A DNA stretch of 64,000 nt from Akkermansia muciniphila (lineage in GTDB: Bacteria; Verrucomicrobiota; Verrucomicrobiia; Verrucomicrobiales; Akkermansiaceae). Location of the stretch: NCBI GenBank assembly GCA_945874895.1, contig CAMCIC010000008.1, positions 1-64,000 of the forward strand, written 5' to 3'. Position 1 is the stretch's first letter; each line of letters starts with the position of its first letter. Positions 1 to 12,566 of the stretch are shown in pieces. The translations under genes were made by a program, and so were the position numbers. The notes beneath the pieces were generated by a model, which was not told the DNA's origin, made no database searches, and saw nothing but the letters and a program-made list of their open reading frames with translations.

Positions 1-156
1 CTTGTTGGCATGCTTGCGCTCCCATCCGGTGATCTCGATGAACTCGTCAAGCAGCTTGCCACGCGCCTTGCGTCCCGTCAGCCGCGCATACCTTGCGCGC
101 ATCTTCTTTGTGTATTCGTCGGTGCTTTTTTCACTCATACTCATGGCTGTCACCAT
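1..156 (-). CDS. Transposase/integrase N-terminal fragment (runs off the window)
   Basis: The first 52 residues of a minus-strand gene are readable from an ATG at 156, and the reading frame is open to base 1. The start is well supported: AAAAGGAG lies 5 bases upstream. The peptide contains YARLTGRKARGKLLDEF followed by GWERKHA. This resembles the N-terminal helical, DNA-binding part of integrase-core (DDE) transposases common in Verrucomicrobiota and Planctomycetes (family knowledge, not searched). The catalytic domain lies outside the window, so whether the gene is intact is unknown. A later ATG (codon 5 or 7) is possible. Confidence 0.6.
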   Translation of the reverse strand, partial: MVTAMSMSEKSTDEYTKKMRARYARLTGRKARGKLLDEFIEITGWERKHANK

Positions 157-237
157 GGTGTCTCCTTTTATGAGGCAACGGCACTCTCCCATTCGCTCTC
201 AGTAATATTTTCGGTGTCCGCTTCAATGAGGCAACAC
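154..237 (-). mobile_element. Putative end of an insertion sequence, with a repeated ~23-bp motif
   Basis: Read on the minus strand, GTTGCCTCATTGAAGCGGAC (from about 236) recurs as GTTGCCTCATAAAAGGAGAC (from about 179), just before the transposase start. The two copies match at about 18 of 23 bases including the following ACACC. Repeated subterminal motifs of this kind often serve as transposase binding sites, so the insertion-sequence end is placed near 237. The other end of the element is outside the window. Exact boundaries are inference. Confidence 0.4.
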
Positions 238-314
238 GCAACGCGAAAAAATCGTAAAAATGCATTGCCAAAGCCCGAAAAATTCTCCTTACTGCGCGCC
301 CCACAACGGTATCA

Positions 315-404
315 GGACAGATGGCAGAGTGGTCGATCGCGCACGCTTGGAAAGCGTGTTTACTGTTAAAGGTAACGAGGGTTCGAATCCCTCTCTGTCC
401 GCCA
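315..404 (+). tRNA. tRNA-Ser (anticodon GGA)
   Basis: The acceptor stem GGACAGA (315-321) pairs perfectly with TCTGTCC (394-400). It is followed by discriminator G401 and an encoded CCA (402-404). The anticodon stem CACGC/GCGTG (342-346/354-358) encloses the loop TTGGAAA, giving anticodon GGA (349-351), which reads UCC/UCU serine codons. A long variable arm precedes the T arm with GGTTCGAATCC, as expected for a class II tRNA. Its 3' end (386-406) is repeated exactly at 903-923 and is the apparent target of the adjacent small element. Confidence 0.95.
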
Positions 405-482
405 TTCTTCGCTTCCTGCGGAAGCTACGAATGGCAAGCCATTGGTAGCTGGAGAAGGATGCGAAGAATGCCCTTCGTAGCT
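403..482. repeat. Nested inverted repeats at the left end of unit A
   Basis: CATTCTTCGC (403-412) is the exact reverse complement of GCGAAGAATG (461-470). AGCTACGAA (423-431) is the exact reverse complement of TTCGTAGCT (474-482). The block is conserved in copy B, where 398-502 and 5500-5604 match at 101 of 105 positions. It could form a folded DNA or RNA element, for example an element end, a binding site or a terminator for the tRNA. The function is unknown. Confidence 0.6.
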
Positions 483-547
483 CGCAGAGCGAAGTAGGGC
501 TGCCAATACGACTCTCCAAGCTCCAATCCAGAACCGTCCTCCGCAAC

Positions 548-802
548 ATGCACTACGCATAAATTCTTCGTTCTTTGTCCGATCCAGACAAATTCTACTA
601 CGGAAGCACTGCTGATTTAAAGGCCCGATTTTCGGTTCACAATGCAGGAGGCAATGTTTCCACAAAGCCTTTTCGACCACGGGAACTTGCGTGGTATGGT
701 GGATTTGCTAACAAGCAAACGGCTGTCGATTTTGAAAAATATCTCAAAACTGCATCCGGCAAAGCATTCGCCAAAAAACGACTGATTCCCTCGCCTTTCT
801 GA
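548..802 (+). pseudogene. GIY-YIG nuclease, copy A (in-frame stop)
   Basis: Translation from ATG 548 gives MHYA, then TAA at 560-562, then ILRSLSDPDKFYYGS in the same frame through to TGA at 802. Copy B has TAC (Tyr) at the stop position, so one C-to-A change broke this copy. The remainder keeps GIY-YIG features: a YYG motif, an LKARFSVHN helix, and the FEKYLKTASG segment with the likely metal-binding Glu. At ~84 aa this is a single-domain, stand-alone GIY-YIG protein of the small UvrC-N-like type. Restart at TTG 575 would lack the first conserved beta-strand Tyr, so activity is doubtful. Confidence 0.75.
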
Positions 803-902
803 TAATTCCATCCTTGCACCCAGGGCCATGGGTTTGAATACAGACTTCGCTTCGAGCGAAATGCGAAAAAATCGCGCAGCGCAAACTGGCATAGCCAAAG
901 GC

Positions 903-923
903 AATCCCTCTCTGTCCGCCATT
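903..923 (+). repeat. Duplicate of the tRNA-Ser 3' end (att-like)
   Basis: These 21 bp are identical to 386-406 in the tRNA gene, covering the T-arm 3' half, acceptor strand, discriminator and CCA plus two bases. There is no tRNA 5' portion here, so this is a junction sequence and not a second tRNA gene. Confidence 0.85.
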
Positions 924-1247
924 TCCGTTCAAGGTAGCTTACACAAAAGTAACAATGCACGAGCGTGTTGCTGGAGTGGAACAACGAATTCTCCCTTCGC
1001 AAAAAGTGAATGACATTAAGGAAAAACCCTTGTGTGAAGCATTTGCAGATTTCCGAGCAGTTGGAAAAGGAGCATGATCCATCCGTAGGACGATTAAGGG
1101 AGCGGGGAAAGCTAATGAAATCATCAAGAAACAATGCAAAGAGCTCGAAAAAATGTTACCATGCGAGGACTGCCCCAGAGACATTTACCGAATCATTAAA
1201 ATTTCCTTTACGGATAAATGTGGAGATATTACGCGTATTCGCGAATT
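924..1247. other. Gap with no gene recognised (island left flank)
   Basis: The stretch between the att-like repeat and the first cargo gene holds no convincing coding region. Short frames on both strands lack homology that I recognise. The composition is AT-richer than the right-hand chromosome, as in the cargo. No clear promoter consensus was identified. Confidence 0.5.
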
Positions 1248-2699
1248 ATGAGCGACATAGAAGATTCTTTCAATGAAAGCGATGGCATGTTGAACGCGAT
1301 GGGGCATATGGCAGCCATCAGCCAGCGCAATCGACAAATTGCCCAGCAAAAAGAACAAGCGGAAGCGATCCGTAAACAGACGGAAGTATTGGAAGCGTCG
1401 AATCGAATTGAAGCCGATCGAGCTGAAGTCGAAAAGCAACGCCTTAACATTGAGAAGCAGCGATTACTAGCAGACGAGGCAGAGCGGGAAATGCGTCGCC
1501 AGCAAGCTGAACAAGTCAGGCAATTACGCAACCTCATGGTCGATAGCATGGAGACACTTGATTCAGTAAAAATATCGCTGGCAGTTCAGTCTATTGATGA
1601 CGCATTAAAACAAAGTGCTCTTAGGAAGACAGCCGCACTTCAAGCTCAGTTGAAAATTTTGGAAAGCCAGTCGGACATTCTTACTGAAATGTCTGACATG
1701 AAAGAGCTTCGAGTCTTGCGCTCAAACCTTTCTGAATTTATCGCCGAACAATCTGCAAATGACAATTTGCCCGATAAGCCCTTGGCCATAATCACAGATC
1801 GTTTGGAATCCCTTAAGACATTTTTCGCCCAATCTGATAATGAGTTGAATCAACTTCTTGGCTGGAAAGCCGATTGGTTGAATCAATTCCCTAAAGTTAG
1901 TCTGGCGGAAATGCACCAAGTCAAAACGGAATTAGCGGAACTCAAAAGCCACCTGCCTAGCATTCAGGAACGTCTGCGTAGCATGCTCAATCCATTGGAT
2001 TGGTGCATCAGTGGTGGATCTCCTGACCTACATCAAGAACTGCGAATTTGCGCAGAACTCATGCCGCGTGAGGAGATTAAAGGCAGTGATGTTTCAGCGG
2101 GAGGAATTATTCTTCCTGGGAGCAAAAAGTCTTATCGTTCATATCTACCACAGTCTCGAGCATGCGCTGAAAAATATGAGTTCGCACACTCTAAAGGCGT
2201 AGCAAACGACCAAGTGATTGCCCACCTTGGCAAGGTCGATAAACGCATCGATGAGCTCATATGCTTGCACGAGAAACATCATGCGTTACTGGTCGAGGCT
2301 GAGGCTCATCTAGCCAATGAAAATTTCCGTAGCGCGGAGAGAGTGATTAAAATCTATGACAAGCAGAAATTCGCTGACATCGACTACAACAAGGTTGATT
2401 CTCTTCTTCAAAGACAACTTACTGTGTGGAAAAAATTTGCTAATCTTGAATCTCGCGTCAACTTATGCTCTTACAAAGATGCTCAAGAAAATCTGAAAAT
2501 GCTAAAAGCAAAGGAAGTCAAAAAAGGTTCGGAGCTTGAAAAAGAAATTGCTCTGATGAGCAAAAAAATAGAAAATGCGATTATAATTCAAGAAAAAATT
2601 CGAAAAAAATCTTTATTAAAAAAAAGAATATTTATTTTTATTTCTATACTTCTAGTAGCCGTATTTATGGCTTATTGCACTTTTAGAGGTTATTATTGA
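1248..2699 (+). CDS. Coiled-coil, C-terminally membrane-anchored protein of unknown function
   Basis: I do not recognise a family. The protein is about 483 aa when started at ATG 1248 (MSDIEDSFNE). An upstream in-frame ATG at 1218 adds ten residues but has no better ribosome site. Residues ~25-130 are rich in Q, E, K, R and A and predict a long coiled coil (repeated EKQRL-like segments). More helical, charged segments follow. The last ~25 residues, after a Lys-rich stretch, form one hydrophobic helix (IFIFISILLVAVFMAYC), so it is probably tail-anchored with its bulk in the cytoplasm. It is first of three same-strand cargo genes, 38 bp before the AbiGi-like gene. The GC content is low compared with the right-hand chromosome. 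Confidence 0.7.
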   Translation: MSDIEDSFNESDGMLNAMGHMAAISQRNRQIAQQKEQAEAIRKQTEVLEASNRIEADRAEVEKQRLNIEKQRLLADEAEREMRRQQAEQVRQLRNLMVDSMETLDSVKISLAVQSIDDALKQSALRKTAALQAQLKILESQSDILTEMSDMKELRVLRSNLSEFIAEQSANDNLPDKPLAIITDRLESLKTFFAQSDNELNQLLGWKADWLNQFPKVSLAEMHQVKTELAELKSHLPSIQERLRSMLNPLDWCISGGSPDLHQELRICAELMPREEIKGSDVSAGGIILPGSKKSYRSYLPQSRACAEKYEFAHSKGVANDQVIAHLGKVDKRIDELICLHEKHHALLVEAEAHLANENFRSAERVIKIYDKQKFADIDYNKVDSLLQRQLTVWKKFANLESRVNLCSYKDAQENLKMLKAKEVKKGSELEKEIALMSKKIENAIIIQEKIRKKSLLKKRIFIFISILLVAVFMAYCTFRGYY

Positions 2700-2737
2700 G
2701 AATAAATTTTAGTCTTAAAAAGATTCAAAAAATCTAA

Positions 2738-3598
2738 ATGAAAATTCACGAAAACATGTTATTCCGCTGGGTTGGATACGACATCGAAATGGGCGATGAG
2801 TATGCAAAATTACCGGCACCGAAACGTCCATTGATTCCGCTCAAAGCAGAATTGACTGATGACCAGCGCGAGATCTACCTTAACCGATTGCGCGATGCTT
2901 TCGATCCAGACAAAGGATTGAGAGTATCGCGATTCGATTGCCAGGATAAGGTGGGAAAGCAGAATGTTGCGACGGATCCTCGACACTGTCTATTTTTCAC
3001 GGAGCAGGCAGCGGGAGATGCGGAGGGTCATTTTCGCCGTTATGGTCGTATGGGTTTCGGCTTTTCAAAAAGAGCGATTTTCAATCAGGGTGGCAGTCCA
3101 GTCATCTATACCGGAGGCAAAAATGCCATACTAGAAAAATCAATCGATATCCTTCGTAAGCATCTTTCGATCTCGAACGCTGGCACAGATGTCACAGATG
3201 CTCTAGAGGTATTCGCCCGATACGTAAAGGTTTCTCGAATGCCTGAAAGTGATGATGTAGCCCAAAAACCGAGTTCAAACGAGAAGCGAGAGCGTAACCG
3301 CGAACAAAGACAAGAAATTGATTCAATGGCGTATCCAATGGAAAAACGCATCCGTTTTCTTGCCGAGCGCGAATGGCGATTGGTGCATAATCCATCTCAG
3401 AGACGTCGTTGGGTGCACTGTTCCGCAGACTGGCTTTGGTATCGTCCTGAGCTTGGCCGAGAACTTCAAGTGGTGATTCTCCCCGACAATCGAACGCTCA
3501 GCATGGCTATCGACTGCGACAAAATCAGGAAAAGTCTTATCTCAAAAAGCCGTCCTCCTGTGCAGTTAATCACAGCAGACGCACTCAAGAAAATCTGA
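2738..3598 (+). CDS. AbiGi-like (abortive infection, DUF2743-type) protein
   Basis: The 286-aa protein shows the pattern of the AbiGi family: CLFFTE (about residues 84-89), then an HFRRYGRMGFGFSK block (~98-111), then NQGGSPVIY (~116-124). These correspond to the family's 'C-FT-, -YG--G-GF-K, NPV-Y' pattern. AbiGi is known as the antitoxin half of the AbiG phage-resistance pair, whose partner AbiGii is a nucleotidyltransferase-like toxin. No AbiGii-like gene is adjacent here. The C-terminal ~100 residues (EWRLVHNP, W-rich) are conserved in many stand-alone members. It lies 17 bp before the lipoprotein gene, so co-transcription is likely. A role in defence is inferred from the family only. Confidence 0.55.
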   Translation: MKIHENMLFRWVGYDIEMGDEYAKLPAPKRPLIPLKAELTDDQREIYLNRLRDAFDPDKGLRVSRFDCQDKVGKQNVATDPRHCLFFTEQAAGDAEGHFRRYGRMGFGFSKRAIFNQGGSPVIYTGGKNAILEKSIDILRKHLSISNAGTDVTDALEVFARYVKVSRMPESDDVAQKPSSNEKRERNREQRQEIDSMAYPMEKRIRFLAEREWRLVHNPSQRRRWVHCSADWLWYRPELGRELQVVILPDNRTLSMAIDCDKIRKSLISKSRPPVQLITADALKKI

Positions 3599-3615
3599 AC
3601 ATTTAGCAATCAAAA

Positions 3616-5142
3616 ATGAAAACCATACTATACCACTTACTGCTACTCGTGCTGATAGCCACGATTCCTTCTTGCTCAAAAAAGCCAGTCCAAGTCTCAG
3701 GACAGATTTTTGTTGTCACGAAATCCAGAGATAACATTAAGATGGGCGGACTGGACGTCTATGTTATTCCTGACTCTGCATTTCAGGCTAGCGCAAAATT
3801 CGTCCTTCCATGGATGCAGGACCAAGTGAAGAAAGAGGCTCAATCTCGTGCCGATTCTGATTACATGACATCCTTCATCAAGGAGGTCATGGTCTTGGAG
3901 AAGAATTTTCCAGAACACCAATCAAAATTTGAGCCAATCAGAATGGGCATTGCGAAGGAGTCTGGAATCGCGGAAGAAATCATTCAGTCAGCATTAACTC
4001 CAGAACTAAAAAAACGTGCCATTGCAAAATTGATCGAAGGCAGCGCATCCAAGGTTACGGTCACAACCGATGCCGATGGACGATTTGTTGTCCCGATTAC
4101 GGAAAAGACCTGGTTTGTTTCAACTGGAGAACGTTCTGTGGGCGATCAGACAGAGCGGTATCTCTGGGTTAAAAGTTATGAGGTTCCCGAAAATATGGTG
4201 AGTGCTACCATGACAATTTCCAATGATGCTGATATTGATGAAGATAACTCATTATACAACTTATTAAATCATTCGATCGGTTCACAGAGTGATCTCAATC
4301 AGTCAAAAAAAGTGGAAGTATCTGAGAAGATGAAGACGATTGTCGAAAAAAATAGTCAGAAAGTTTCTGAAATAAAAGCGAGCATTGAAAAACAAATCGC
4401 AGAAGCAAAGAAAAAATTCAACGGGAATCGAGCAGGCGAGGAAAAAACTCTAGAAATCGCGCCAAGAGTCAAGATGACATTTTGTTGGTGTCCTGCTGGT
4501 GACTTTACCATGGGAAGTCCAGAATTAGAGGGAGCTAGATCATCTGACGAAAAACAAGTCAAGGTGACGCTAACCAAAGGATTTTGGATGGCAAAAACGG
4601 AGGTGACTCAGGCGCAGTGGGAGGCTGTAATGAGATCAAATCCGAGTCTATTTAAAGGTGATAATTTGCCCGTTGTGAAAGTGAGTTGGAACGATGCTCA
4701 AGAGTTTCTGGAAAAGTTAAATGCATTGATAGGAAGTGACGGCGGAGGGAAGATGGTTCTGCCAACTGAATCGCAATGGGAATACGCATGCCGTGCTGGG
4801 GAGGCGGGACCTTTTTCAGGAGGAACAATCGATGAGGTGGCCTGGTATTCTGACAACAGTGGATCTAACACGCACCCAGTTGGAACTAAGAAGCCGAATG
4901 CATGGGGTCTGCATGACATGCATGGGAATGTTTGGGAATGGTGTCAGGATTGTTATAATGATCAGTTGCTAGGTGGAGTTGATCCACGAGTTATTACTTC
5001 GGGCACGCACCGGGTGTACCGGGGCGGCGGCTGGAACGACAACGCGTACGACTGCCGCGCCGCAAACCGCGACTACAGCCTCATCATGTCAACCGCGTAC
5101 GGCAACAACGGCTTTCGTGTGGCCCGCAGTTCAGTCCCCTAG
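3616..5142 (+). CDS. Lipoprotein with C-terminal FGE/sulfatase-modifying-factor (C-type-lectin-like) domain; putative DGR target
   Basis: The 508-aa protein starts with a lipoprotein signal peptide (lipobox ATIPSC, Cys20). An unassigned exported region (~21-285) follows, with a helical, Lys/Glu-rich linker at ~235-275. From ~286 to the end is an FGE-sulfatase domain: GDFTMGSPE, KTEVTQAQWEAVM, LPVVKVSWNDA, LPTESQWEYACRAG, GLHDMHGNVWEWC and a final RGGGWND...GFRVARS. This fold is a common DGR variable-protein scaffold, and the 3' 46 codons have the DGR codon signature (see separate entry). The paired Cys of true FGEs is not evident, so a binding role is likelier than sulfatase activation. Surface display through the lipid anchor is typical for DGR targets. 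It is third in the cargo operon. GC rises sharply at about base 5,000. Confidence 0.85.
   Translation: MKTILYHLLLLVLIATIPSCSKKPVQVSGQIFVVTKSRDNIKMGGLDVYVIPDSAFQASAKFVLPWMQDQVKKEAQSRADSDYMTSFIKEVMVLEKNFPEHQSKFEPIRMGIAKESGIAEEIIQSALTPELKKRAIAKLIEGSASKVTVTTDADGRFVVPITEKTWFVSTGERSVGDQTERYLWVKSYEVPENMVSATMTISNDADIDEDNSLYNLLNHSIGSQSDLNQSKKVEVSEKMKTIVEKNSQKVSEIKASIEKQIAEAKKKFNGNRAGEEKTLEIAPRVKMTFCWCPAGDFTMGSPELEGARSSDEKQVKVTLTKGFWMAKTEVTQAQWEAVMRSNPSLFKGDNLPVVKVSWNDAQEFLEKLNALIGSDGGGKMVLPTESQWEYACRAGEAGPFSGGTIDEVAWYSDNSGSNTHPVGTKKPNAWGLHDMHGNVWEWCQDCYNDQLLGGVDPRVITSGTHRVYRGGGWNDNAYDCRAANRDYSLIMSTAYGNNGFRVARSSVP
5003..5140 (+). other. Putative DGR variable region (VR) and IMH-like 3' end
   Basis: Within the last 46 codons nearly all divergent positions relative to the usual RGGSWNNNA...NRNNN pattern are NNC codons: CAC, GGC, GAC, TAC, GAC, GAC, TAC, AGC, CTC, ATC, ACC, TAC, mixed with unchanged AAC. 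Every one can be made from AAC or AGC by changing only A bases, which is the hallmark of adenine-specific DGR mutagenesis. The final GC-rich segment (~5105-5140, GGCTTTCGTGTGGCCCGCAG) resembles an initiation-of-mutagenic-homology end. No template repeat or reverse transcriptase was found in the window, so the driver would have to be elsewhere or lost. Confidence 0.6.
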
Positions 5143-5499
5143 GAAAGCAGGAAGCGGAGCGAGCGGAACGGAGTAGCCAAGCGAGGGACGAGCGCAAGCA
5201 ACGCAGTGTAAGAAGCGGAGTGGCATGCTCCCCGCGAAGCGGGACGAGATTTCTCTCAGTTGACTCCATGCATTGGGCATGAGCGCACTCACCGTCACCC
5301 TTGGAGCCGACATCTCCGCGTTGCAGAGGTCTGGGTTTCAAATCCATTTATTCATCCAGGACAGAATGACGGTTTTCCCGACGGATTTCTGACAAAGATC
5401 GTGTCGTCAATTGTCGCTATTTGAAACCCGGAGAATCCACTGAACCAACATATACTATGAAGTCAATAAACGACCGACCCAACGTGGGCTTCCTGCCCA
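5143..5499. other. Non-coding stretch after the VR gene, with hairpin and inverted repeat
   Basis: No gene is supported here. Directly after the stop is a purine-rich, GC-rich tail (5143-5220). A small GC hairpin CCCGC-GAA-GCGGG follows at 5231-5243. Further on, GGGTTTCAAAT (5333-5343) is the exact inverse of ATTTGAAACCC (5419-5429). DGR variable genes often carry a short GC stem-loop just downstream of the VR, but this one is ~90 bases away and has only 5 bp, so the link is weak. Confidence 0.4.
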
Positions 5500-5860
5500 T
5501 CCGCCATTCTTCGCTACCTGCGGCAGCTACGAATGGCATGCCATTGCTAGCTGGAGAAGGATGCGAAGAATGCCCTTCGTAGCTCGCAGAGCGAAGTAGG
5601 GCTGGTTCTTAGTGTAACAAGTAACCCTCTCGCTCATCTCGCTCATGCACTACGCATACATTCTTCGTTCTTTGTCCGATCCTGACAAGCTCTACTAAAG
5701 TAGAACTTCAGATCTAAAGGCCCGATTCTCGGTTCACAATGCAGGAGGCAATGTTTCCACGAAACCAATGCGACCATGGGATTGAACGCGAGCTTCGCTT
5801 GTGGCGAAATTTGAAAAAATCGCGCAGCGCAAACTGACATGGCCAACGGCAATCCCACCT
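5500..5860 (+). mobile_element. tRNA-associated GIY-YIG unit, copy B (decayed)
   Basis: This is a second copy of the unit beside tRNA-Ser. 5500-5604 matches 398-502 at 101 of 105 positions, starting with TCCGCCATTCTTCGCT. The nuclease frame at 5645-5785 matches 548-690. The 3' segment 5793-5859 matches 845-911, ending GGCAATCCCACC where copy A has GGCAATCCCTCT. Only fragments of the tRNA-end repeat remain at its edges. About 0.1 kb of the nuclease gene is missing. With copy A it brackets the AT-rich cargo at 924-5499. Confidence 0.65.
5645..5785 (+). pseudogene. GIY-YIG nuclease remnant, copy B
   Basis: ATG 5645 gives MHYAYILRSLSDPDKLY, then TAA at 5696-5698, then recognisable DLKARFSVHNAGGNVSTKP, ending at TGA 5783-5785. 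The N-terminal Y-I strand that is broken in copy A is intact here. The C-terminal third, including the catalytic-Glu helix, is deleted. The deletion junction CGACCATGGG looks like a hybrid of CGACCACGGG and GGCCATGGG in copy A, suggesting recombination at a short homology. Confidence 0.75.
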
Positions 5861-5895
5861 TCTCAGCCCTCCATCTGTTTGGGCACTTTTACCAA

Positions 5896-6411
5896 TCAGG
5901 GCAGATCATCTTCATCGCCTGGCACGGGCGGGATCAGATCCTCGCGTTGCAGCAAGCGAACAAGATCAAGATCATCGAGCAGGTCTTCTGGGGTTCGTTG
6001 CACGGTGATGGCGTAGGGCATGATTCGGTCCAATTCGGCGATCGTGCAATGCACCATCGAGGTCACGATGTCCGCGTCGTAGCGTTCTTTTTCAAAAATG
6101 TTAGTGATACGGAACACGAGAAACTGACGATCGAGATCGTATTCGAACGATCCGAGATTGAGGAACTTGTTCGCCCGACAAAGCAATTCCAGCAGATAGG
6201 GAATATGCTCCTCGCTCACGGGCAGAGGTGATTCGCCCACGACCGCCAGTGCATTGATGGGTGTGTAGGACTGGGCGTGCAGTTGGATGCGCGTGTGATG
6301 AGCGGAAAAGGAGGCGCGGATCACATCGCGACCTTCGATCAGCTCGCAATGCCAGCCATTGTTACCAAAGGCGGTTTCGACCGATAGAATTTGCAGGGAG
6401 GGTGGGCGCAT
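5896..6411 (-). CDS. YbjN-like (sensory transduction regulator/T3SS chaperone-like fold) protein
   Basis: A 171-aa soluble, acidic protein with no signal peptide or membrane helix. The order of segments (LLELLCRANKFLNLGSFEYD, then a beta strand, then an amphipathic helix with MVHCTIAELDRIMPYAITV) fits the YbjN family, whose fold resembles type III secretion chaperones. The molecular role in most bacteria is undefined. Its ATG is 2 bp after the stop of the upstream membrane-protein gene, so the two are probably co-translated. The assignment rests on pattern, not on a search. It is the first chromosomal gene beyond the island's right unit. Confidence 0.5.
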   Translation of the reverse strand: MRPPSLQILSVETAFGNNGWHCELIEGRDVIRASFSAHHTRIQLHAQSYTPINALAVVGESPLPVSEEHIPYLLELLCRANKFLNLGSFEYDLDRQFLVFRITNIFEKERYDADIVTSMVHCTIAELDRIMPYAITVQRTPEDLLDDLDLVRLLQREDLIPPVPGDEDDLP

Positions 6412-6413
6412 AA

Positions 6414-6923
6414 TCAGGAAGAAGTAGATACAGGTTCTTTGCGAAGCTGAGTGATAGAATCCACCAGCACGCGCAATAATTCTCGTTGGGCGGGCACTAT
6501 AGGTGAAAGCGAAACAATCACACCAGCCGATTTTTCCGCCGTGTAGTGGATCAGCAAGCGGGTGTTAGGACCGTCATACTCCAGCGAATGGATTTCCGAC
6601 CACAGCAGCAACTGCATCGATTTTTCTGGGCGAAATAGCGGAAAAATCTCTAAACCCAGCGGCGTAAAAATCAGATAGGCATGGCGGACGCAACGAACCC
6701 CAAGGCGGAACATCGCCCACGCGGCAAGCAAGGGAAATGCCGCCGTCCATGCGTAGCCTTGGAGGCGAGGAGCCTCGAACTCCGTGCCTTGTGTCGCAAG
6801 CACGATCACGCCCAACGCCATCGCCCCATGCAAAGCGGCCAAGACCAGCCACATGCGCCCCTGGGCGGCACGTGTGAAACGCACTTCCTTTTCCGGAGAG
6901 GCGATGGATGTGGGAGCTGCCAT
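6414..6923 (-). CDS. Two-helix membrane protein with PH-like C-terminal domain
   Basis: About 169 aa from ATG 6923 (MAAPTSIASPEKE). A start at 6947 is also open but adds only VPVPRF-type residues. Two hydrophobic segments (around WLVLAALHGAMALGVIVLA and AWTAAFPLLAAWAMF) are followed by a ~100-aa cytosolic region. That region has the alternating strand pattern (YLIFTPLGLEIFP, LLLWSEIHSLEYD, LLIHYT) typical of bacterial PH/DUF304-like domains. No enzyme motifs are visible. It is probably in an operon with the YbjN-like gene downstream. The specific function is unknown. Confidence 0.55.
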   Translation of the reverse strand: MAAPTSIASPEKEVRFTRAAQGRMWLVLAALHGAMALGVIVLATQGTEFEAPRLQGYAWTAAFPLLAAWAMFRLGVRCVRHAYLIFTPLGLEIFPLFRPEKSMQLLLWSEIHSLEYDGPNTRLLIHYTAEKSAGVIVSLSPIVPAQRELLRVLVDSITQLRKEPVSTSS

Positions 6924-6974
6924 GAATCGGGGAACAGGCACCAGCATCTACAGATTCACCCCGCTGGCAACGAT

Positions 6975-7970
6975 TTATCCGTCTTGCAACATCGATCCCG
7001 ACCAATCGCTGATTTGCGGTTTGGTGACCGCGGATGGATACTGCTTTTCCTCCAATCCCCGCTGCCATGGATCGGGACCTACCCATTCGGTTTTGCGACC
7101 GGCGATGGTCATTTGGCCGGCATCAAAATCCAGAGTCACCAGAGCCCACAACGCTTCACGATAGGGCGCGACTTGTGCGAGATTCGGATGAGCCGAGTGG
7201 ATGCTTTTCTCATAAACCTCGCGTCGTGCCGTGGCGGGCAGCCATACGTAAGAAGCACTGTTGACTTGCACGTAGGGGATGTCCTTGATGCGATTCACCG
7301 AATCCTGGTGCAAATGCCCGGCAAACACGGCGATCACACCCGCGTGATCCTTGCCGCGATTTTTTTCCAACAGTGCGCGGATTTCGTTTTGATTGGTGAT
7401 GCCACCCGGAAGATCCAAGGGCTGATGCACCATGACGATCACAGGCAGGGTCGTGCCGTCCAATTGTGCTTCCAGCCAGTTCTTCTGCTCCTCCGCGATG
7501 AATCGCTGGTAGCCGCTTTTTCCGGCTTCGGGATCATTGCCATCGAGCACAATGAATTTCACGCCGCCCTGCTCGAACGCGTAATAGCGCGCAGGCATGC
7601 CATACCACGCGACGGTTTGTTCGCGTTTGAACCCTCCATCCATATCGTGATTGCCCAGCACATGATAGCGTGGCCCCTGATAAGAATTCCACAAATCCAT
7701 GAAGGGCTTGTTTTTTTCGATGGGTTGGCAGAAATCCCCGAGTTGAAAAATCAGGTCAGGCTTCTCCACCTGCATGGCATCGAGAAAAGTACGCAGGCGG
7801 TCCATGGCATCGTGCATGATGTCCTGATGCACGTCGCTGATCATGCCGATGCGCATCTTTCCCTTGCGGGGATTGCGAGCCAGCGCCGGCATATTCAGGG
7901 TAAGCCCCGCCGCTGCCAACAAGGTGTCACGGAAAAAATCACGCCGTGTCGAAAGGGATGAATCGGCCAT
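6975..7970 (-). CDS. Tat-exported calcineurin-like metallophosphoesterase
   Basis: About 331 aa from ATG 7970. This start places a twin-arginine motif STRRDFF at residues ~8-14 before a hydrophobic stretch (LLAAAGLTLNMPALA), so folded export by Tat is predicted. Metallophosphoesterase signatures are present in order: D-x-H in ISDVHQD, GDFCQP, GNHD (VLGNHDMDGG), a later MVHQPL histidine, and GHLHQD. These bind a two-metal centre that hydrolyses phosphomonoesters or diesters. The natural substrate cannot be told. Further upstream in-frame starts exist (to 8036) but would bury the Tat motif. It is 51 bp upstream of the PH-like gene. Confidence 0.85.
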   Translation of the reverse strand: MADSSLSTRRDFFRDTLLAAAGLTLNMPALARNPRKGKMRIGMISDVHQDIMHDAMDRLRTFLDAMQVEKPDLIFQLGDFCQPIEKNKPFMDLWNSYQGPRYHVLGNHDMDGGFKREQTVAWYGMPARYYAFEQGGVKFIVLDGNDPEAGKSGYQRFIAEEQKNWLEAQLDGTTLPVIVMVHQPLDLPGGITNQNEIRALLEKNRGKDHAGVIAVFAGHLHQDSVNRIKDIPYVQVNSASYVWLPATARREVYEKSIHSAHPNLAQVAPYREALWALVTLDFDAGQMTIAGRKTEWVGPDPWQRGLEEKQYPSAVTKPQISDWSGSMLQDG

Positions 7971-8057
7971 GCACTTCATTACCGAGATGATGCCGTTTGA
8001 TCTTTCAACTTCTGCCAATCCGCACACATTGATCACGCCGCGGGTGAGATTTTGATA

Positions 8058-8348
8058 CGGACTGAAGTCCCAATGCCATTAAAGCTTCGGAATGATGATG
8101 AATGCATTCGTATTTCGTCCCATCGGGACGATTCATGGAACGACACGCTGCCGTTTGATCAATCGGTATGGTCCTCGATATTGTCGTTGAATCCTCTGAG
8201 TCGACGCGTTCCCCGATGAGGCGTCCCGTTGGGACGCAAAAATCTTATGAGGTGAAGTTACCCACGGCTTCACCGTGGGCTGACATGAGTCGTCCTTTTA
8301 GGACGAAAAAGCCATAGCCAATCCTTAAAGGCATTGGACTGAAGTCCG
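8058..8348. repeat. Palindromic repeat block (REP/MITE-like) with inverted ends
   Basis: This gene-free stretch carries four short palindromes: CGTCCC-ATC-GGGACG (8116-8130), GCGTCCC-GTT-GGGACGC (8221-8237), CCCACGG-CTTCA-CCGTGGG (8261-8279) and CGTCC-TTTTA-GGACG (8291-8305). The edges are imperfect inverted repeats of each other: CGGACTGAAGTCCCAATGCC at 8058 against the reverse complement of 8323-8348 (CGGACTTCAGTCCAATGCCT). It looks like a non-autonomous repeat element or a cluster of REP-type hairpins between two convergently unrelated operons. Transcription termination is a possible side role. Confidence 0.6.
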
Positions 8349-8373
8349 CGCTCCTACAGATGAACCTCTGCGA

Positions 8374-9264
8374 TCACTTCTGCGGGATGCGGGCTCTTTG
8401 GTAGCTGTCCCACAGTGCCGCCGCCTGTTTTTCGGCATTAGGCAAAGGCAAACCGGCGGGGACGCCCGGACGCTGATGTTTGGTTTCCGTCAACCAGGCG
8501 TGTTTCAACAAATCGTTGCGTTGGATCAGAATGTTCAGGGCCTCGCCCTGGGCCACGGTGGGAACACCGGGGAGTTTCCACAAGGGCCACAATTGTTTCA
8601 CGATGGATGCGGCGATGAAATCATGCCCTTGCGGACCGGGGTGCACTTTGTCACCGGCGTATACGAATCCGGGATTTTTCTGTTTCGCCTCCGCGATCGC
8701 AGTGCACAGGTCGGGACGGATGTCGATGACTGACCAGCCTTTTTGTGAGAGCAACCACGCAGCTTGCGCATCGAGCACGGCATCATAGCGCTGCGGATCT
8801 TGCGACGGGTGATCGGCATCATGCAAAGGCGCGGTGATGACCACAAACCTGCCCCCCTGTTTTTCCACGGCATCTTTCAAACGCAACATGCCATCTTGAA
8901 ACGCCTTTTGGCGCGTGTCATCAAGCGGTTGGTAAATGCCATCATTCATGCCATAACAGGCCAACACATGCGTGGGGCGATAGGCTTCCAGGATGCGGGT
9001 GAGTCTCTCGTGAAGACAAGGGCGGGGAAATTTCCCGCCAGCGTGGCCATTTTCCGATAGACCGGACACGGTCTCGCTGCCCAGACCGAAATTCACGATC
9101 ACCGCTTCGGAAAAGGCGGGAGTCTCGCGCAAGGCAGATTCCACCAGAGTCGCCCAACGTCCGCCGTAGGTGATGCTATCGCCGAGGATGGCCACGCGAG
9201 GAGCCTCGGCGAGGCAGAGGAGCATCGTGGCAAGGCAGGACACAAAAAAACTGAGGATTTTCAT
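8374..9264 (-). CDS. Secreted SGNH/GDSL hydrolase
   Basis: A 296-aa protein with a cleavable signal peptide (MKILSFFVSCLATMLLCLA). SGNH blocks are in order: GDSIT with the catalytic Ser (residues 28-32), an oxyanion Gly after GLGSETVSG, GMND (105-108), and D..H in GDKVHPGPQGH (~residue 222). The fold covers esterases and lipases acting on acyl or acetyl groups, often on polysaccharides, and the substrate is unknown. A ~60-aa C-terminal helical extension follows the core. It is the last gene of the tyrS-DUF-grx run, 13 bp after the glutaredoxin stop. Confidence 0.85.
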   Translation of the reverse strand: MKILSFFVSCLATMLLCLAEAPRVAILGDSITYGGRWATLVESALRETPAFSEAVIVNFGLGSETVSGLSENGHAGGKFPRPCLHERLTRILEAYRPTHVLACYGMNDGIYQPLDDTRQKAFQDGMLRLKDAVEKQGGRFVVITAPLHDADHPSQDPQRYDAVLDAQAAWLLSQKGWSVIDIRPDLCTAIAEAKQKNPGFVYAGDKVHPGPQGHDFIAASIVKQLWPLWKLPGVPTVAQGEALNILIQRNDLLKHAWLTETKHQRPGVPAGLPLPNAEKQAAALWDSYQRARIPQK

Positions 9265-9277
9265 AGGTGAAGGGCAA

Positions 9278-9520
9278 TCAGCCTTTCACCTTACGCAGAA
9301 AAGGCACCAATTCTTCCACGCCAAAATCCGCCAGCACCTGACCGTGCCAATCGAGGGTGGGAGCTTTGCTTTGGCCAGAAAGCGCGACCATTTCCGCCAT
9401 CGCCTCACGATTGCCACTGACCACGATGGTTTCGTAATCGATGCGATGGCGATCGAGATAAGCGATGACTTCATCGCACCAAGGACAACCGACTTTGATA
9501 TAGAGGATGGGTAAGGACAT
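9278..9520 (-). CDS. Glutaredoxin family protein
   Basis: An 80-aa single-domain thioredoxin-fold protein. The dithiol active site CPWC is at residues 12-15 after a first beta strand (PILYIKVG). The TVP-type cis-proline site is represented by KAPTLDW (~52-58), and the GVEEL helix closes the domain. It probably reduces disulfides or glutathione mixed disulfides in the cytoplasm. It is 3 bp downstream of the preceding small membrane-protein gene and thus in the tyrS operon. Confidence 0.85.
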   Translation of the reverse strand: MSLPILYIKVGCPWCDEVIAYLDRHRIDYETIVVSGNREAMAEMVALSGQSKAPTLDWHGQVLADFGVEELVPFLRKVKG

Positions 9521-9523
9521 GAT

Positions 9524-9802
9524 TCAGGAATTTCTTTTTTCGCGTTTGGATGCTTGTTCGAGCAGGGATTTTTCTTTGGCGCTCAGGCTGCTCATGCCCG
9601 ATGCGGCGATCTTTTCCAAGATGCGATCGACCTCATCGCGCTCCTGGCGGCGCTTGCGAGCGGCATCGTAATCCTGAAAGCGTTCACCGGGTTGGTGAGG
9701 TGGCTCACCGAAATTGATCGAAGAAAACCACGTCATCCACCTGTGGCGTGTGAACCACAGCAGAGCTGCGATCAGCAAAACCGGCATCCACCAATCGTTC
9801 AT
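9524..9802 (-). CDS. Small membrane-anchored protein (DUF6576-like tail)
   Basis: 92 aa: one N-terminal hydrophobic segment (WWMPVLLIAALLWF) followed by a charged cytosolic tail. The tail contains VDRILEKIAASGMSSLSAKEKSLLE-type sequence. That motif resembles the short C-terminal domain (DUF6576) found on some rhomboid-family proteins, but there is no protease domain here. The function is unknown. It starts 7 bp after the tyrS stop and is co-transcribed. Confidence 0.6.
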   Translation of the reverse strand: MNDWWMPVLLIAALLWFTRHRWMTWFSSINFGEPPHQPGERFQDYDAARKRRQERDEVDRILEKIAASGMSSLSAKEKSLLEQASKREKRNS

Positions 9803-9809
9803 ACCCTCA

Positions 9810-11000
9810 TCAATCGACCAACCGCACCGCGTGTTTTTTTGACAACTTCAAGACATCGCCGGCCTTGAGTGAAACGGAGCCATTGGGATCGGTAAGTTTC
9901 TCACCATTGAGCTGCACGGATCCGCTGGTGATGAATTGTTTACGCAATTCGCCGTTGGATTTTTCCAAGCCGAAGGCCTTGCTGAAGGCGAAGGCACTCA
10001 CGGTCAGGACGTTCCGTTCGGAGGGTAAGGAGGTGAGGGAAATTTCGGGTAGATCCGCATCAGCAAGGTTGCGCTTGGAGAAACGCAGATCCCAGTCCTC
10101 ACGCGCGACCAGGGCGGCGGCATCATCGTGGTAGCGGGCCGTCAGTTTCTGCGCGAGGGCTTTTTTCGCATCCATCGGATGCCCGGATGGATCGCGTGCC
10201 TCGCCTAACAGAAGTTGGTAATAACGATCCATCAATTCATCCGAAACGCTCATCAACTTACCATACATTTCCTGTGGACTGTCGTTGACACCCACGTAAT
10301 TGCCATAGGACTTCGACATCTTTTTCACGCCGTCCAAGCCTTCCAGCAAGGGCATGAGCATGACGACCTGCTGCGGTTGACCCTCCTCTTTCTGCAAGTC
10401 ACGACCGACGAGAATGTTAAACAACTGATCCGTGCCACCGATCTCCACATCGCTGCGAACCACCACCGAATCCCAGCCTTGCATGATGGGGTATTGCAAT
10501 TCGTGGAGACGCACTTCCTGAGCGTCATGGAGACGGGTGCGAAAATCCTCGCGCTGGAGCATCTGCTGCAAGGTCACACGACCATTGAGCTTGAGGACTT
10601 CCTCGTAGGTCATCTTACGGAACCAATCGCCATTGTATACGACCTCCGTCTTCGCACGATCCAGAATCTTAAACGCTTGAGCCGTGTAAGTTTCCGCATT
10701 CGCCAACACCTCATCACGGGTGAGCGGAGGTCGAGTAGCGGAGCGGCCTGTCGGATCACCGATGGTGGCAGTGAAGTCGCCGATGATCAGCACAGCTTGG
10801 TGGCCTAGCAACTGAAATTGGCGCAGCTTCTCCAAGGCCACCGTATGTCCGAAGTGGATATCAGGAGCGGTTGGGTCGACACCCAGCTTCACGCGCAGCG
10901 GTCTACCGGAAGCGAGTTTTTCAGCGAGCTCCTTTTCCGATAGAACCTTGGCAGTTCCTGAAGTGAGAATTTTCAACTGTTCAGTAGGCGAGTGAGACAT
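9810..11000 (-). CDS. tyrS: Tyrosyl-tRNA synthetase
   Basis: The 396-aa class I synthetase charges tRNA-Tyr with tyrosine in the cytosol. The nucleotide-binding HIGH motif is HFGH (residues 49-52) and the KMSKS loop is at 227-231. GGTDQLFNILVGRD forms part of the active site, and an S4 RNA-binding domain (QFITSGSVQLNGEKL) ends the protein. The HFGH form and overall length match the TyrZ-type subgroup. The ATG at 11000 leaves a normal N-terminus. It is first gene of a four-gene minus-strand run with gaps of 3-13 bp. Confidence 0.95.
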   Translation of the reverse strand: MSHSPTEQLKILTSGTAKVLSEKELAEKLASGRPLRVKLGVDPTAPDIHFGHTVALEKLRQFQLLGHQAVLIIGDFTATIGDPTGRSATRPPLTRDEVLANAETYTAQAFKILDRAKTEVVYNGDWFRKMTYEEVLKLNGRVTLQQMLQREDFRTRLHDAQEVRLHELQYPIMQGWDSVVVRSDVEIGGTDQLFNILVGRDLQKEEGQPQQVVMLMPLLEGLDGVKKMSKSYGNYVGVNDSPQEMYGKLMSVSDELMDRYYQLLLGEARDPSGHPMDAKKALAQKLTARYHDDAAALVAREDWDLRFSKRNLADADLPEISLTSLPSERNVLTVSAFAFSKAFGLEKSNGELRKQFITSGSVQLNGEKLTDPNGSVSLKAGDVLKLSKKHAVRLVD

Positions 11001-11170
11001 GAGGTTCTACGTTATCGGCACTCTGGAATACTGGCAAGGCGTTATTGAATGAGATACTCGCAAGTGAGAGCTTGCCTCATCACTGGGCCGAGAATGCCAT
11101 CCATTCCAGCGGTTCTGTCTCTGCTTTCTCCGATGCGCAGCTTCTGGGCAACCATCCCCCTACTCCAACC

Positions 11171-12556
11171 TCAGAAATTCAAGTAAATTTCAGTGCGGCG
11201 ATTGGCGCGACGTCCTTCTGGATCATCTTCGCCAGTGGACTTCACATTGGGTCGGCGAGGTTCGCTGAAACCTTTGGCTGAGGTGAGGATCTGTTCTGCG
11301 ACCACGCCTGCGGAAATGAGATAATCCCTCACGGCATTTGCGCGGTTCTGTGACAAACCCTGGTTGTAGCCTGCGCTGCCAAGGGCATCAGTGTGACCGG
11401 AGAGGTGGATTTTCTTTTTCCGATCGGTTTTCAAAATCATGGCTACGATGGCGAGTTGACGCTCGGTGCGGCCCGTGAGGCGTTCCTCATCAAATTCGAA
11501 ATACAGCACCAAGGTGTCACCTCCCGCGGGGTTCCTGATCAGAGGGGTGTAGTAAACATCACCACCAGCGAAGCGTTGAGCGTAATCACTGAGCAACTGA
11601 TCGAGGTTTAATTCATCGATGACCCAATTCGCCTGCGCGGGAGTTTTTTTGAGAATGATGGCGAACTGTGCAGCGTGGGTTCCATCCGCAGCCTGAACAT
11701 TGGCCAGATAGGATGTGATCTCCTCTTTTTGCAACATCGCACGCAATGGCTTTTCTGAACGAAGTCGATAATTTCCTTCCTCAAACAAAATGCACAAACC
11801 CGCCAGGGTGGTATCCGAGACTTTTTCCCGATTCACAAATTCCCGAGCAAGGGTGAAATTCTGACGCAAGACCGCGAGCAAAAAAGCATCGGTCACTCCG
11901 AGCGCATCCACCATCATGGCGCGAGGAATCTGCTCACCGTCAAGTGGGGGAAGGGTGACACGGTCCACTTCCCATAGGCCGTTATTTTTCGCGAGATCAA
12001 AGTAAATGCGATCTCTGCCAGGCTCGCGATCAGTCAGCTCAAGAGCATATCGTGCGCGCCGATTCAGCTCGAGTTCACCGACCTCGCGCACCGGATGGGG
12101 CTCCTTCAATTTGATCGGCTGTCGGGACAGCATGTCCTTCAGCCCTAGGCGCGTTTCCTCATTCATCGCACGCTGGCCTATCAGCTTTTCTGCGGTGGCG
12201 TAATCCTGATGTGCGAGAGCCTGGCCGATGGAGTTGATCAATGCCATGGGGTCGGTGCGGCGCAAAACCACATCCGGAGAACCCGTAGCACGATTGTCCC
12301 CTTGGTTCTCATCCATCGTGTTTTTCGATGGTCCGTCTGCCGCCTGTTTTTTCACCTCCGCCGATTCTGGCTTTGCAGGCGTGCTTGTCAGTGCCGCACG
12401 TTTCGCACGCTTGTTTTTTTCCAACAGGATCAACGTGGTGCTCATAGCCAAGAGGACCATGAGTAGAAAAACGATCAAAGGCGCCTTGGATCGTGGTTTT
12501 TTCTCACGCCATGCTGGGCTTTGATTCGGTTCGGAAACGGATGAGGGATTGACCAT
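11171..12556 (-). CDS. Inner-membrane-anchored OmpA-domain protein
   Basis: 461 aa. One membrane helix at residues ~25-45 (APLIVFLLMVLLAMSTTLILL) lies after a positively charged N-terminus, so the rest is probably periplasmic. The middle ~250 residues are unassigned. Residues ~350-461 are an OmpA/MotB-like peptidoglycan-binding domain: LYFEFDEERL, LSGHTDALGSAGYNQGLSQ, RANAVRDYL and RRTEIYL. The gene begins 10 bp after the kinase stop, so kinase and OmpA protein form a unit, perhaps coupling signalling to the cell wall. Typical C-terminal Asp/Arg diaminopimelate contacts are visible in the GHTDALG and RRANRRTE parts. Confidence 0.8.
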   Translation of the reverse strand: MVNPSSVSEPNQSPAWREKKPRSKAPLIVFLLMVLLAMSTTLILLEKNKRAKRAALTSTPAKPESAEVKKQAADGPSKNTMDENQGDNRATGSPDVVLRRTDPMALINSIGQALAHQDYATAEKLIGQRAMNEETRLGLKDMLSRQPIKLKEPHPVREVGELELNRRARYALELTDREPGRDRIYFDLAKNNGLWEVDRVTLPPLDGEQIPRAMMVDALGVTDAFLLAVLRQNFTLAREFVNREKVSDTTLAGLCILFEEGNYRLRSEKPLRAMLQKEEITSYLANVQAADGTHAAQFAIILKKTPAQANWVIDELNLDQLLSDYAQRFAGGDVYYTPLIRNPAGGDTLVLYFEFDEERLTGRTERQLAIVAMILKTDRKKKIHLSGHTDALGSAGYNQGLSQNRANAVRDYLISAGVVAEQILTSAKGFSEPRRPNVKSTGEDDPEGRRANRRTEIYLNF

Positions 12557-12566
12557 GACTTTACGA

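Follow-up and report, generated by a model that had tools for sequence, protein, structure and literature searches.

A phage-borne type of diversity-generating retroelement target, without a recognised reverse transcriptase or template, in a tRNA-Ser island of Akkermansia muciniphila

The stretch of 64,000 nucleotides analysed here (the window; Akkermansia muciniphila, assembly GCA_945874895.1, contig CAMCIC010000008.1, positions 1 to 64,000 of the forward strand) carries at 3616-5142 a gene for a 508-residue protein with a lipoprotein-like signal (..PSCSKKPV..), an FGE/C-type-lectin domain and a C-terminal variable repeat (VR) of the kind found in targets of diversity-generating retroelements (DGRs). 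This gene and the features described below lie on the plus strand unless stated otherwise. A first-pass annotation, made by a model from the sequence letters, had described the product as an FGE-fold lipoprotein. A profile search placed the PF03781 FGE domain at residues 290-504 (E 3.1e-43), and the N-terminal signal bears out the second half of the description in so far as it is lipoprotein-like; this N-terminus resembles those of the related loci L105 and L226 (L, G and C are our handles for loci, genomes and contigs). The best solved relative is TvpA, the Treponema denticola variable protein 1 (2y3c; E 1.5e-23, residues 381-502). The protein may act in surface binding or surface sensing. 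In the source genome there are 12 FGE-family matches.

The VR occupies 4999-5121, with an approximate 5' limit, and was delimited by alignment to template repeats and other VRs and by codon positions. It is followed at 5123-5141 by CCCGCAGTTCAGTCCCCTA, a VR-type initiation of mutagenic homing site recognised by its pattern and by the distinction between AGTTC and AGCTC: in six of the eight cis pairs listed the former stands at the VR end and the latter at the template end, the motif being missing there in L079 and L082. With Y at position 14 the pattern was found in 31 of 273 loci, window copies and overlapping loci counted in. The contexts of the site comprise 30 distinct ones with T, some of which may be single sites counted through overlapping loci, and four with C, all four being known templates. 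The window site carries T and is thus of VR type, not of template type. When 18 loci are aligned, the sequence stays conserved for about 85 nt after the stop codon (up to about 5226), and this purine-rich block (5143-5226) was also traced by blastn. At 5231-5243 there is a CCCGC-GAA-GCGGG hairpin, perhaps a terminator, which was read from the sequence, the alignment and phage contigs with no terminator or folding program; similar hairpins, partly imperfect, occur in several loci lacking a reverse transcriptase (RT). The target in G086:C327 (L083) shares the terminal AGTTCAGTCCCCTAG with the window gene. The VR together with its initiation site and downstream block is called the cassette in what follows.

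The 3' end of the gene has a composition of its own, as the first-pass annotation had seen. Codons ending in C (NNC) account for 31 of the final 46, against 77 of the preceding 462, and the richest other stretch of 46 codons has 14; the GC content is 0.67 against 0.44 in the rest of the gene, and at third positions 0.87 against 0.42. This feature is real and sharply bounded. The step from 44% GC in the body to 67% in the VR would be left by a cassette swapped onto the gene through recombination, a possibility weighed below, but mutating AAC codons from A to N would also raise the GC content of a VR.

Measured by the templates of relatives, none of them the cognate one, the mismatches of the VR are concentrated at A. 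The closest of three templates compared was that of G272 (L225); from it the VR departs at 16 of 38 A positions and at 11 of 101 others, part of the latter at a length difference of one codon. The earlier claim that the divergent codons are reached by changing A only therefore stands in the main, with the 11 other positions departing from it. Three intact cis VRs differ from their own templates at 1-2 of 99-101 non-A positions, and in 16 other cassette VRs the non-A mismatch is 1-16% (1-2% in the three cis pairs). Nine FGE ends without the cassette served for comparison. Three of these, from the window's own genome (C9 twice and C10), lie within the VR range at 10-15%, and the remaining six (one own, five from other loci) show 26-37%, against 11% in the window. 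The odds ratio for changes at A is 6.0 in the window and 1.7-4.5 in these six; it is raised there because the loops are A-rich in the template anyway. As the odds ratio thus separates VRs from other FGE ends poorly, codon positions were used.

For this the window gene was compared with nine homologues chosen for the cassette, two of which (L104 and L105) come from one metagenome-assembled genome (MAG); the VR segment comprised 42-45 codons, the constant end included. Identity in the gene body is 0.28-0.54 at third positions and 0.47-0.86 at positions 1-2; in the VR it is 0.75-0.95 at third positions and 0.59-0.80 at positions 1-2. All nine comparisons give a higher third-position identity for the VR than for the body, and in eight position 3 is the most conserved of the three, the exception being L225 (position 2 0.80, position 3 0.77). 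Nine FGE ends that lack the cassette, taken from other loci as a control, are 0.21-0.48 identical to the window at third positions of the same segment, and position 3 is never the most conserved; four FGE ends of the own genome gave 0.70, 0.53, 0.77 and 0.37 when compared with the window. The cassette pattern is explained by a template that has its A at the first and second codon positions, whereas protein-level selection of the ordinary kind would favour the opposite one. The non-A rate and the codon positions discriminate the window VR better than the odds ratio does and, to judge from them, the 3' end of 3616-5142 is a genuine DGR variable repeat.

The source genome is a draft, 97% complete and in 26 contigs. 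A search of it for RT and template, proposed by the first-pass annotation, was run and yielded neither. The reverse transcriptase profile PF00078 had 0 matches in the draft, and the DGR RT of G086, a query that finds RTs in other genomes, had 0 matches there at E<=10. With the G086 template as query, the window VR and three other FGE ends were retrieved from the source genome, all further matches being no better than E 1.4. A search with the window VR returned that VR and two other FGE ends and missed one found by the G086 template, its sensitivity being limited. Own paralogues were considered as templates and rejected: the three FGE ends (C9 twice, C10) are internal to giant proteins and have no initiation site. 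A scan of window positions 1-14000 for A-biased repeats revealed no template, tblastn gave no match to an HRDC accessory in the window (Avd was not searched for), and no remnants of accessory or RT lie 3' of the window VR at E 0.01. A single VR of the exact window cassette type was found in the source genome.

RT and template were thus sought and not found, and the gene is therefore classed as an orphan DGR target and not as a DGR: the VR sits in an FGE/C-type-lectin target, while the cognate template and the RT of a complete DGR were not found in the draft. An orphan target, or else one driven in trans, had already been suggested by the first-pass annotation. Two observations had been named there as speaking against a DGR origin, namely the absence of template and RT from the genome together with homologues that vary equally at positions not derived from A; the first is seen in the draft, the second is not.

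Complete DGRs of this type occur in relatives. The 508-residue protein has matches in 95 of 97 genomes (the own genome, the same genus, family and order), and 48 of the 97 have a PF00078 reverse transcriptase, which several of the best protein matches adjoin. Eighteen loci, selected from the protein and RT match lists, were scanned for ungapped repeats with mismatches on A of one copy, a scan that favours A-biased repeats by design; template/variable pairs were found in 12 of them, and a further pair in L225. As a control the mismatch minimum was tightened; repeats on the same strand were then A-biased in 11 of the 18 loci and C- or G-biased in one (L087), T-biased repeats mirroring A on the opposite strand. 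A second A-biased scan, of 22 other sources, gave L225 as the sole true pair, and the rest were read as tandem repeats or paralogues. In G086:C327 (L083) the gene order is target, HRDC accessory, RT and template. No plasmid-borne core was recognised, the best RT among the plasmid matches listed being 38% identical, and among the matches listed from GenBank phages the best RT reached 39%, with all 148 records below 60%.

Cassettes without a recognised RT are frequent. Window positions 4995-5190 are matched at E<=0.001 in 49 of 386 genomes of the order (two candidates scored per genome), a count in which weak matches may be plain FGE ends and genomes may be incomplete. The DGR RT had a match in 24 of the 49 at E<=0.001 and in 12 at E<1e-30. 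When the cassette match was held to E<=1e-20, which leaves 19 genomes with the own one included, five had an RT (E<1e-30), on the same contig in three. In L223, L224, L227, L231 and L232, 26-60 accessory codons follow the VR and no RT is present in the fetched stretch. In L224, a GAAGTAT tandem array lies between the VR block (~6315) and the accessory fragment (6501) and is reminiscent of the repeat arrays replacing RT genes in Thiohalocapsa PB-PSB1.

The setting of these cassettes is that of phage cargo. The initiation site is present in six IMG/VR contigs. The viral contig L243 (50.7 kb) carries a complete DGR near a tape-measure gene, 95.5% identical to L225 over 2786 nt. Between the two, whose gene bodies are 95% identical, every one of the 19 differences in the VR is at a template A, and from initiation site to accessory gene the two are identical; this pattern indicates that the DGR has been recently active. 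In L247 a VR target has genes for terminase, portal and capsid as neighbours, and the accessory gene is cut at codon 49, adjoining a template remnant. The same joint, accessory codon 49 directly followed by the 3' part of the template with the RT missing, was seen in L244 (2255-2259), L247 (9759-9763) and L246 (2776-2780); L246 and L247 may be one phage. In L245 and L248, the tape-measure gene starts 141 and 173 nt after the VR (PHROG 9959 in both), and the intact tape-measure protein of L245, in which PF20155 was tested, matches this profile as well.

The closest FGE domains found by tblastn belong to L353-L355 and L358, RT-less loci on viral contigs, with 71.0% and 69.6% identity, and in these the order of VR, block, hairpin and tape measure is that of the window. 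With the tape-measure protein as query, the best 80 of 203 loci were fetched; 12 of the 80 have an FGE match, which in seven ends less than 200 nt before the tape-measure gene, and none of the 80 has a match to a DGR RT. Among whole viral records, all of which may be fragments, an RT was found in one of 18 (L243); for three of the 18 (L309, L297 and L303) the loci show no FGE match. By gene order and similarity, then, the window target gene is to be regarded as phage cargo, and the lipoprotein-like and other cargo N-termini beside the tape measure suggest phages that equip the host with a diversified surface or sensor protein. In L280, 3827-10001 holds two cargo modules, each with a 114-aa protein, and between them a tape-measure fragment of 57 codons, as if cargo inserts via duplication of the tape-measure start.

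The window gene itself lies in an island at a tRNA gene, as the first-pass annotation had stated. A tRNA-Ser (GGA) at 315-404, identified by ARAGORN, forms the left edge, and its 3' end bears an att-like repeat (386-406), a 21-nt exact direct repeat with the second copy at 903-923. The left copy of a longer flanking repeat (398-920, in the segments 398-502, 547-684 and 826-920) is matched by the right copy at 5500-5868, with 96%, 87% and 80% identity to 5500-5604, 5644-5781 and 5774-5868, respectively. Behind the target gene, a phage tail tape-measure gene begins at 5279 and is broken after 16 codons (MSALTVTLGADISALQ, 5279-5326); over 87 nt this part of the window is 79% identical to the tape-measure start of L276, and longer stretches of the gene are present in L245, L248, L353-L355 and L358. 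Ahead of the target gene, the gene at 1218-2699 specifies a cargo protein of 493 aa that resembles a phage protein of 114 aa and then the N-terminal part of phage cargo proteins (in L280, 72% over 108 aa to the 114-aa protein, 31% and 38% to a 607-aa target and a 1005-aa protein). No integrase was recognised by eye in the list of open reading frames (ORFs), and no search aimed at integrases was made. Two points go beyond the first-pass annotation: the gene is phage cargo, and the island has the look of what is left of a phage tail region.

We consider it likely that the gene is a DGR target left stranded when its prophage decayed, and that it is now frozen and possibly rescuable in trans. An RT would have copied an A-rich template RNA, misreading adenines, and the cDNA would have replaced the VR beside the AGTTC initiation site by mutagenic retrohoming. 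A temperate phage, probably one of Verrucomicrobiota, would have carried the gene as cargo adjacent to its tail tape-measure gene, and the prophage at tRNA-Ser would have decayed in situ to the cargo and 16 tape-measure codons. Since neither the locus nor the assembled genome yielded an RT or a template, diversification would have halted, and the VR most likely stays frozen as the variant last written, except where a co-resident phage provides RT and matching template in trans.

Several points weigh against this reading. The window begins at a contig end of the draft genome, so RT and template could be missing from the assembly, and the part of the window examined was its first 14 kb. In the island, no phage genes were recognised beyond the 16-codon stub and the cargo homologues. 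The odds ratio at A would by itself be weak evidence, and with a non-cognate template a split of the 11 non-A mismatches into drift and template difference is impossible. The own FGE ends C9a and C10a have no initiation site, yet at third positions their identity to the window is 0.70 and 0.77; conservation there is therefore not unique to the cassette, unless these two are old VRs. The predicted structure of the target is poor across the VR (mean predicted local distance difference test score, pLDDT, 61.4; below 50 at 436-497) and was left unused.

That the VR is still being rewritten, by the RT and template of another phage or plasmid which the draft did not capture, we consider unlikely. 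The cassette has been kept intact in initiation site, downstream block and open reading frame, a complete DGR of the same type exists on the viral contig L243, and activity in trans has been proposed for Thiohalocapsa PB-PSB1 (PMC10907252). The VRs of L104 and L105, whose MAG has no PF00078 hit, differ, yet their third positions are 1.00 identical in the VR and 0.83 in the bodies, as if rewritten from one template; the substitutions all lie at positions 1-2, apart from one codon of length difference. In the RT-less pair L355/L358 the corresponding values are 0.91 and 0.66. Both pairs suggest rewriting after the bodies had diverged, which tells against freezing and which could predate the loss of the RT. 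On the other side stand the absence of RT and template from the assembly and the single VR of this cassette in the genome. In addition, the three RT-less contigs L353-L355 carry different metagenome numbers and do not differ anywhere in 2400 nt, VR included; by this identity such cassettes look frozen, though all three may stem from a single population.

Taken further, RT-less cassettes could be a maintained class and no mere debris: stand-alone hypervariable cargo of phages and their hosts, made up of VR, initiation site, block and terminator-like hairpin, for which co-infecting phages supply RT and template and so drive diversification in trans. We regard this as a tentative idea and an improbable one. 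If true, variable surface receptors would be shared among phages, as in a helper-satellite system. The many related loci make it testable whether RT-less targets are frozen or rewritten in trans.

It is more doubtful still that recombination placed a GC-rich 3' cassette on an FGE gene with no retrohoming in the lineage. Such a swap would account for the arrival of the cassette but not for variation in the A pattern, and the nearest relatives of the window FGE body are themselves RT-less targets from viral contigs (70-71%). Its merit lies in the occurrence of the same C-terminal cassette on different N-terminal modules and in the proposal of duplication and recombination as the source of new DGR targets (PMC10907252). 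Finally, an ordinary C-terminus of the FGE-sulfatase family, its NNC codons reflecting an asparagine-rich consensus and a GC-rich patch, is largely refuted and very improbable, for while the 12 FGE-family matches, the A excess in six non-cassette ends and the third positions of two own ends would suit it, it is rejected by the codon positions and the low non-A rate, and a non-coding block and VR-type initiation site common to template/variable pairs also speak against it.

The preferred reading of a stranded, frozen target may be set beside known systems. The DGR of Bordetella phage BPP-1 is phage-borne and resembles the window system in mutagenic retrohoming and in the logic of the initiation site. 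Its accessory is Avd, whereas the accessory of the window-type cassette is HRDC, and the RT of this cassette is 37% identical to the BPP-1 brt. DGR surveys usually begin from the RT gene, and targets like that of the window would therefore be missed. The BPP-1 target is a tail fibre (PMC8144416), unlike window-type targets with their lipoprotein-like or signal-like N-termini or cargo modules. The global survey in the same source describes phage DGRs with C-type-lectin-fold targets, as in window-type systems, and its main text is without the terms 'orphan' and 'in trans' (PMC8144416).

Orphan targets are an already known kind (PMC4891356, PMC10907252). T. denticola isolates that lack RT and template still have target genes, with VRs that depart from known templates mainly at A positions; the authors regard these genes as likely leftovers, and the parent DGR has an HRDC accessory (PMC4891356); in both respects, and in supplying the closest solved structure, this system is like that of the window. 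It belongs to a different phylum, and known phage genes are reported not to be associated with its DGR locus (PMC4891356), whereas the window target is phage cargo beside a tape-measure gene. Thiohalocapsa PB-PSB1 shows remote targets, RT loss and cassette shuffling: C-terminal C-type-lectin cassettes sit on varied N-termini, targets are possibly served in trans, and the RT was lost or replaced by repeat arrays, just as no RT was found with the window target (PMC10907252). Other loci of the PB-PSB1 genome keep RT and template (PMC10907252), and none was found in the window's genome. Among the matches listed from open-licence literature, nothing closer than PMC4891356 and PMC10907252 was found, and no description of the phage-cargo setting by the tape measure, of N-termini other than tail fibres, or of the frequency of RT-less targets.

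Some further observations concern the surroundings. Between the two cargo genes of the island, 2738-3598 encodes a 286-aa protein with a weak match to AbiGi-type abortive-infection antitoxins (PF10899, E 4.9e-5; PHROG 13416, E 1.2e-4); as part of the phage cargo it may serve in defence. The own-genome FGE ends on C10 (L004, ~4258 and ~5773) and C9 (L005, ~2778 and ~4308) are internal domains of giant ORFs of 2446 and 2132 aa that run open to the contig end; three of the four have few non-A mismatches to relatives' templates. C9a and C10a are 0.80 identical to each other at third positions in the FGE end and 0.55 in the body, and are possibly older VRs. The two contigs terminate in identical protein sequence, probably an assembly break within a repeat. 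L081 (G076:C142) is a DGR-like locus with several related repeats of another type. A tRNA-Ala reported by ARAGORN at 6761-6827 on the minus strand lies inside a same-strand ORF of 177 aa (6414-6947) and is probably a false positive.
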